DNA of 64,000 bases from Synechococcus sp. Tobar12-5m-g. GTDB taxonomy: Bacteria > Cyanobacteriota > Cyanobacteriia > PCC-6307 > Cyanobiaceae. Below the pieces are notes generated by a model, which was given only the letters and a program-made list of their open reading frames with translations, did not search any database and was not told where the DNA came from. This document shows positions 4,709-12,583 of the stretch, piece after piece (position 1 is the first letter of the stretch; each line of letters begins with the position of its first letter). The translations under genes and the position numbers were made by a program. Location of the stretch: the NCBI RefSeq assembly GCF_024345415.1, contig NZ_JAGQBB010000001.1:186001-250000 (forward strand), in the 5' to 3' direction.

Positions 4709-4948
4709 TCAAGTTTCCAGAGGCAATGCCACAACCCGCACGCTGCAGGCGGCGCTGATCTCCTCCCACCGCTCCGGTGTCACTCCCAGGCGCTCTGGCA
4801 GCTCAGCTGGCGGGCAGCCCTGACGCAGCAACTTCTGGCCGCTGACGTAGAGATCCCGCCAGGAGGGCGGCACCTTGATCGCAAAGCCGTGGTCCCCCAG
4901 GTTGTGGGTGATCTCGCCGTTGGCGTGACAAACGCCCGCCGCATCCAT
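4709..4948 (-). pseudogene. Remnant of a group 3-like sigma factor (C-terminal half)
   Basis: About 79 codons from ATG 4948 encode a sequence closely matching the C-terminal half of the short sigma factor at 12095-12583. Shared segments are ANGEITH, DHGFAIKVPPSWRDLY, SGQKLLR and PERLG-T-ERW-EI--ACSV. The N-terminal part of region 2 found in the intact copy is missing and upstream sequence is unrelated. It ends at the same point as its paralogue, after region 3, without region 4. It may be a dead copy, or a short expressed ORF starting MDAAGVCH. Flanking 4591-4708 and 4949-5137 hold no other gene I can support. Confidence 0.7.
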
Positions 4949-11717: not shown

Positions 11718-12094
11718 GCTCAGATTCAGTGTTGCTCCGAGAGTTGACAATGAAAGTGGATGACCCGCGCATGTCAACTCCTCAACGACGCCATCCACCT
11801 GAGCCGACCCGAGGGGATCTCTTTAACATCGTGACTTGCTTGAAGCCAGGTGATACCGATCCTTACCAGCCAATTCACATTTGGGCCGACAGCACTAAAT
11901 AGCCAATCCCACAACTTCAAGGATGTGGTGAAAGGCAACCGGAAAGGGGGTTTCTCAGCTGCCCCCCCCCTGATGATCGGTAGTGAGATCCAGTTGTTGC
12001 CGCTCTTGTCATTACCCACGGGATGACACATTGGGCCAAGCCTGCGTCTTTGGCCAGCACAGGCTGAGAGTGCTCTGCACTTTGGTACCACTGC
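11718..12094. other. Gene-free stretch with a second C-tract
   Basis: About 375 bases between the broken transporter gene and the short sigma factor. A 105-codon frame on the minus strand has no recognisable domain and I do not support it. A run of 9 C lies at 11962-11970. Nothing else stands out. Confidence 0.45.
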
Positions 12095-12583
12095 TCAGGA
12101 ATCTGGCTGCAGTGCGATCACCATGACCGAGCAGGCGTCCTGAATCTCCCGCCATCGCTCAGCTGTGATGCCCAGCCTCTCCGGCACCGCATGGGGCGGC
12201 AGCCTCTCCCGCAAGAGCTTCTGCCCACTGGGGTAGAGGTCCCTCCAAGAGGGTGGAACCTTGATCGCAAAGCCGTGGTCCCTCAGGTCGTGCGTGATCT
12301 CGCCGTTGGCGTAGGTGCGGGCGTAGGGGCGAAACGAGCGCCCGCCCGTGCCATTGAAGCGAGCCCCCGCCTTGAGCAGCCCGATCACCGCGAGCTGGCG
12401 CAGATCATCGAAGGGATGGGTGGTTCGCCGGGCGAAGTTGCCGGCGATCGTGTCCGCCAGATCCAGATGCGCCAGCGCCAAGGCATGGGCAGCGGCATGG
12501 GGATGGACGGGCCGCAGGGGCCCGGGGATGGTGGTGATACACCCCCGTTCCGCAGCCCACATCGAGGCCACGGTTGGCTTCAT
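12095..12583 (-). CDS. Short sigma-70 family factor, group 3-like, lacking region 4
   Basis: Protein of 162 residues. Region 2 is recognisable from about 55 to 115: DDLRQLAVIGLLKAGARF, then FRPYARTYANGEITHDLRD and GFAIKVPPSWRDLY, which matches the pattern of cyanobacterial SigF-type factors. Region 3 follows (PERLGITAERWREIQDACS). The protein ends there, with no region 4 for the -35 element. A partial paralogue at 4709-4948 ends at the same position, so the short form may be the normal form in this lineage. It starts 16 bases after the methyltransferase stop and may be co-transcribed. Function as a true sigma factor is uncertain. Confidence 0.7.
   Translation of the reverse strand: MKPTVASMWAAERGCITTIPGPLRPVHPHAAAHALALAHLDLADTIAGNFARRTTHPFDDLRQLAVIGLLKAGARFNGTGGRSFRPYARTYANGEITHDLRDHGFAIKVPPSWRDLYPSGQKLLRERLPPHAVPERLGITAERWREIQDACSVMVIALQPDS

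Follow-up and report, generated by a model that had tools for sequence, protein, structure and literature searches.

What could a sigma-like gene be for if it stops after region 3, and why does a second copy nearby stop at the same place? The window, by which we mean the whole stretch of 64,000 nucleotides analysed from Synechococcus sp. Tobar12-5m-g (contig NZ_JAGQBB010000001.1, positions 186,001 to 250,000), carries on its minus strand, at 12095-12583, an open reading frame whose 162-residue product comprises sigma region 2 and region 3, without region 4. Pfam Sigma70_r2 (PF04542) spans residues 38-104, passing its gathering cut-off with an E value of 7e-9, and the profile search matched the product to no model of region 4. 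The best family match over regions 2-3 is SigB/SigF/SigG (NCBIfam PRK07408 and TIGR02980), the region 4 of those proteins being absent here: NCBIfam SigF alignments reach about residue 151 and then stop, and the whole-protein scores, 45-71 bits, lie below the curated cut-offs of 234 and 261.

The second copy, at 4709-4948 on the minus strand, is a shorter remnant that derives from a different copy of the gene and comprises the end of region 2 and region 3, with an identical end point. Its product shares 73% identity over 70 residues with residues 90-159 of the 162-residue protein, and its DNA homology to relatives spans about 4745-4926; the long open frame listed for it, running to 5449, is spurious. 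The best DNA matches among relatives are L017/L018 for the remnant versus L013/L014 for the gene. Since these best matches differ, the two appear to be remnants of separate prophage copies, and an origin by local duplication is disfavoured. The source genome holds just these two copies, in addition to other, longer sigma factors.

To learn whether the short form is inherited, relatives were sought in one genome per species across 84,980 species. The scan returned 34 related loci in about 23 assemblies of the Synechococcus/Cyanobium group, nearly all of them in Synechococcus, Cyanobium or Vulcanococcus and often several per genome, and further relatives were retrieved from viral contigs. All 34 loci stop at one and the same point behind region 3, and region 4 is absent from every one of them as well as from every viral-contig relative read. 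Chance is excluded as the cause because 34 homologous loci have an identical end. The first-pass annotation, which had described a sigma-like factor lacking region 4 and a paralogous remnant sharing its end, and had read that end as an inherited short form, is thus borne out on each of these points, and the full-length relative with region 4 that would have spoken against it was sought and did not appear in the loci or the viral contigs. PF04542 also scores above its cut-off in intact members, which places their region 2 in the sigma-70 superfamily in agreement with the fold matches; they do not belong to the full-length sigma-70 type with a C-terminal region 4, as every member stops after region 3. 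One contig binned as a Sphingomonadales metagenome (L031) carries a cyanobacterial TerL-sigma pair and was probably mis-binned.

Intact short sigmas are 190-240 residues long. In an alignment of 32 sequences (A1), almost all invariant columns lie within regions 2 and 3, region 2 residues being largely invariant among intact members. The structure model predicted from A1 has disordered residues 1-60, region-2 helices at 75-146 and three region-3 helices at 155-196, after which the chain ends; its fold matches are sigma factors, over model residues 63-198.

The gene order around these relatives points to a phage. A gene for the terminase large subunit, TerL (PHROGs phrog_38, E values down to 2e-73), lies directly upstream on the same strand in 33 of the 34 genome loci, preceded in most of them by a small TerS-like gene. 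Viral contigs run from helicase, primase and nuclease through TerS, TerL and the short sigma to a variable stretch of about 1-4 kb, behind which come portal and scaffold, a reverse lysis cassette, the major head protein and further genes. Most prophage-bearing viral contigs gave no integrase match, and three gave weak or edge matches. No close relatives of the short sigma were found among 50,697 phage records; the cyanosiphophages S-CBS2, S-CRES1-3 and PSS2 encode homologues at 30-38% identity. These genes, annotated "SigF/rpoS", resemble the prophage sigma in having regions 2-3 and no recognisable region 4, and the TerS-TerL-sigma order recurs in S-CBS2, PSS2 and S-CRES1. In a sigma tree, phage groups 1 and 2 join apart from the host sigmas, on long branches and with modest support (89/96), so a common origin of both phage sigma groups appears likely; the fold model of the sister-group sigma, built on four sequences, is of low confidence (pLDDT 57). 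In L044, L045, L049 and L051 the stretch between sigma and portal either holds genes that vary, among them a methyltransferase in L051, or has few called genes, and in several prophages it ends in a conserved hairpin-like block.

The identity as a host gene was dropped once this synteny was found. By homology and gene order, the window gene is a decayed copy derived from a TerS-TerL-sigma operon of a temperate cyanophage or prophage family, in which the sigma is the last gene. Homology in DNA to intact prophage copies is confined to 430 bp (12093-12522, minus strand; blastn, up to 89% identity) and stops abruptly on both sides, starting at about codon 21 and finishing at the stop codon. The first 20 or so codons of the frame (12523-12583, minus strand; MKPTVASMWAAERGC...) are not homologous to intact members in A1 and stand in place of a tail of about 60 residues that bears a QLxLPL motif; blastn with the N-terminal DNA of four relatives (L014, L013, L018 and L008) gave no match there. 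Both the intact N-terminus, with its clamp-binding-like motif, and TerL have been lost. An aromatic residue in region 2.4 kept in every other member is D in the window copy, and a small residue, its class kept in every other member, is R. At comparable dS, the window copy has a dN two to four times as high as that separating intact relatives, and its dN/dS to relatives is still low, at 0.10-0.21. The window copy has lost the tail of the prophage sigma and probably its function too, and it is probably a dying relic. The unstated premise of the earlier annotation, a working host gene, gives way to a decayed fragment of a prophage gene, and its suggestion of an anti-sigma decoy finds no support. 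The linkage to TerL, the phage origin and the clamp-binding-like motif missing from this copy had escaped that annotation. Other pieces of the same prophage family are present in the source genome (L117, L005 and L053): on C25 (G000:C25:5552-6442, L117) a major head protein gene (72%) near holin and sig24-like genes, and on C13 (L053, C13:27634-28056) a TerS/TerL fragment. A portal gene gave no match elsewhere in the source genome.

If the window copy is a relic, the role of the gene has to be read from its intact relatives. A recurring word, GGCAWACTA, was first noticed in S-CRES1 upstream of terS, the portal, the scaffold and another late gene. S-CRES3 and S-CBS2 together have 13 sites for it, and 11 of these precede genes by 20-85 bp, versus a mean of 1.9 sites and 0.1 just upstream for 300 permuted words. 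It presumably resembles SigF/SigG -10 elements; nothing turned up in the literature on CATACTA, the -10 word of sigma-G. Only once this word was known was an element recognised in the prophages, where AT-rich stretches upstream of portal and head protein genes had given no common word. It reads CTGGCAAnrGC and lies about 20-46 bp upstream of the portal, head protein, lysis, scaffold and p165 genes, having been derived from the portal and head protein sites with the lysis, scaffold and p165 sites left out. TGGCAANRGCW has 30 sites in 271 kb of prophage sequence, and 21 of these lie 15-60 bp ahead of a called start, versus 1.7 sites and 0.0 just upstream for permuted words; these counts overstate independence, because part of the word's derivation used these very sequences and the prophages are relatives of one another. 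At -35 distance nothing is common to the seven classes of prophage site, and likewise in the sister group. The source genome's own head protein gene keeps CTGGCAATAG about 44 bp upstream.

The other recurring feature is found in the tails. Intact prophage members start, mostly right behind the start codon, with QLxL[PF][LFI] or a near variant (QLSLF in three, QLCLPL, QLVLPL, QLSLPI and others). Of 31 members, 30 have QLx[LM], even though the rest of the N-terminus is unalignable in A1; shuffling the N-termini produces a motif of this kind at a rate of 0.01-1% per lineage, its codons vary synonymously between members, and none of 295 other proteins called from these loci has it in its first 30 residues. 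Nine members fetched later provide a partial test, a relative from their clade (L070) being already in the alignment: seven have the motif, and L086 and L090 show no clear one. A second copy 30-40 residues downstream is common (QLVFAF, QLSLSL, QLEINL, QLVIAF). In the sister group (S-CRES1-3, S-CBS2 and L098-L102) such an N-terminus is missing and is replaced by a C-terminus of Q(G/P)SLF behind a poorly conserved linker, in all members whose end was read; among 106 S-CRES1 proteins checked, the sigma is the only one with this end. In S-CBS2 it falls beyond a frameshift: the annotated 206-residue sigma (L095:5953-6573) halts at an apparent frameshift, and another frame in the next 120 bases runs on to ...LQGSLF, like its relatives. 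No clear clamp motif was seen in sigmas of the PSS2 type. The bacterial clamp consensus is QL(S/D)LF or QLxLF (PMC9690074, PMC4549789), and, judged from the sequence, both groups have a clamp-binding-like motif on a flexible tail, N-terminal in one and C-terminal in the other. The host encodes an ordinary DnaN; no clean QLxLF was seen in its UmuC, which would have served as a positive control for the clamp motif of the host. The annotation of S-CRES1, S-CRES3 and S-CBS2, which is incomplete, lists neither a phage clamp nor gp33.

We propose that region 2 of the intact short sigma would bind core RNA polymerase and read a -10-type element before late operons, CTGGCAAnrGC in prophages and GGCAWACTA in the S-CBS2/S-CRES sister group. 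With region 4 absent no -35 element would be read and the holoenzyme would be weak alone, and the flexible tail, with its one or two beta-clamp-binding motifs, may tie it to sliding clamps left on newly replicated phage DNA. Late genes would thereby fire where phage DNA replicates, as with gp55 and gp45 of T4, with the host clamp serving instead. The make-up of the regions, the link to TerL, the conservation of the motif, the positions of the promoter-like words and the lack of a -35 were observed; core binding, reading of these words by this sigma, clamp binding and coupling to replication are inferred. Two functions put forward in the first-pass annotation, binding to core polymerase and recognition of -10 elements only, would fit the largely invariant region 2 of intact members and, for the second, the candidate late promoters that show no -35. 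We judge it fairly probable that the window gene is the relic of a late sigma of temperate cyanophages, one that read -10 elements only and was clamp-tethered when intact.

The standard textbook example of a sliding clamp that serves as a mobile activator of transcription is late transcription in T4, and the T4 late promoter consensus is TATAAATA, a sequence that the words recurring here do not match. The T4 gp55 protein, which works with gp45 and gp33 (PMC2988020, PMC7892883), resembles the short sigma in several ways: it has region 2 and lacks region 4, helices follow region 2, a clamp-binding motif sits on a flexible tail (predicted in our case), and the late promoters (candidates in our case) have a -10-like element alone. 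There are also differences: in the searches made the short sigma comes nearer to SigF than to any gp55, the motif is N-terminal in one cyanophage group, and the phages are temperate, with other head genes and no phage-encoded clamp or gp33 seen. The matches listed for the PDB profile and fold searches do not include gp55, which does not rule out a relationship. We do not place the short sigma in the gp55 family, as neither a phage clamp nor gp33 was seen, its candidate promoter words are different and homology to gp55 is unproven. In T4 the contact between gp33 and the clamp is essential (PMC7892883). Geiduschek and Kassavetis (2010) wrote that no other natural instances of clamp-activated late transcription had been found and considered the restriction of the device to T4-related phages puzzling (PMC2988020), so the present case addresses a stated open question. 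We lean slightly towards replication-coupled late transcription outside T4 phages: a TerL-linked sigma without region 4 would serve -10-only promoters while tethered to the host beta clamp through a motif that lies at opposite ends in the two groups and often occurs twice in one of them, and this single protein could stand in for both gp55 and gp33. In the literature searched, most subscription journals lying outside it, we found no description of the missing region 4 or of the clamp motif.

Other explanations have to be weighed. A late sigma might read -10 elements alone with no coupling to the clamp, its QLxL and Q(G/P)SLF tails binding something else, such as TerL or another part of the polymerase. 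In favour of this, region 2-3 and the linkage to TerL persist in L086, L090 and the PSS2 type with the motif missing, and clamp binding itself is a prediction. Against it stands the position of the motif, at the N-terminus of one group and the C-terminus of the other and each time within a tail of poor conservation, together with its fit to the published clamp consensus; we regard this explanation as unlikely. The packaging machinery could also have reused a sigma-like fold together with TerL for DNA recognition, with no role in transcription, as the near-constant position right after TerL might suggest. Region 2 nevertheless retains typical sigma residues and scores as SigB/SigF/SigG, and promoter-like words precede the late operons, so that such a role seems highly improbable. 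Nor is it at all probable that the host has domesticated the window copy as a core-binding competitor or regulator. The frame, open across 162 codons, and the low dN/dS would agree with domestication, but the confinement of homology to 12093-12522, the change of the aromatic to D and of the small residue to R, the raised dN at similar dS and the second, shorter relic 7 kb away all point the other way.

The short protein could instead be half of a two-part sigma, supplying regions 2-3 to a separate region-4 protein in the manner of SigO/RsoA or gp55/gp33. SigO/RsoA of Bacillus subtilis is a two-subunit sigma in which one protein has region 2 and lacks region 4. The first-pass annotation had asked whether region 4 is encoded elsewhere, and the answer is mixed: some of the same prophages do encode a second sigma with region 4, sig24, of about 200 residues (L063:5731-6315, plus strand; L065:15413-16018, minus strand; L067:15252-15815, minus strand), located in reverse orientation at their far end, and S-CBS2 and S-CRES1 likewise encode a second sigma; yet sig24 comes with a region 2 of its own, and in two prophages with a retained short sigma (L073 and L071) it is broken. 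No partner carrying region 4 alone was found, unlike in SigO/RsoA, and the candidate late promoters have no conserved -35, making this arrangement very improbable. The second sigma of both phage groups, rather than the short one, could read the late words; sig24 had no match in the 50,697 phage records.

Should the clamp-tethered late sigma that we favour be real, a second case, in unrelated cyanophages and with the host's bacterial clamp, would mean that the principle arose more than once. A single protein of 190-240 residues, with a single motif and a defined set of candidate promoters, would also make a compact system for experiments; late promoters would be indicated for cyanophages and prophages of fresh and estuarine waters, and the cyanophage "SigF/rpoS" genes would need a corrected name. 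Additionally, a perfect palindrome, CAACAGCTGCTGTTG, coincides in part with the promoter-like CTGGCAACAGC at all five head-protein sites read (e.g. L072:12834-12860), and this palindrome upstream of the major head protein gene could be an operator.
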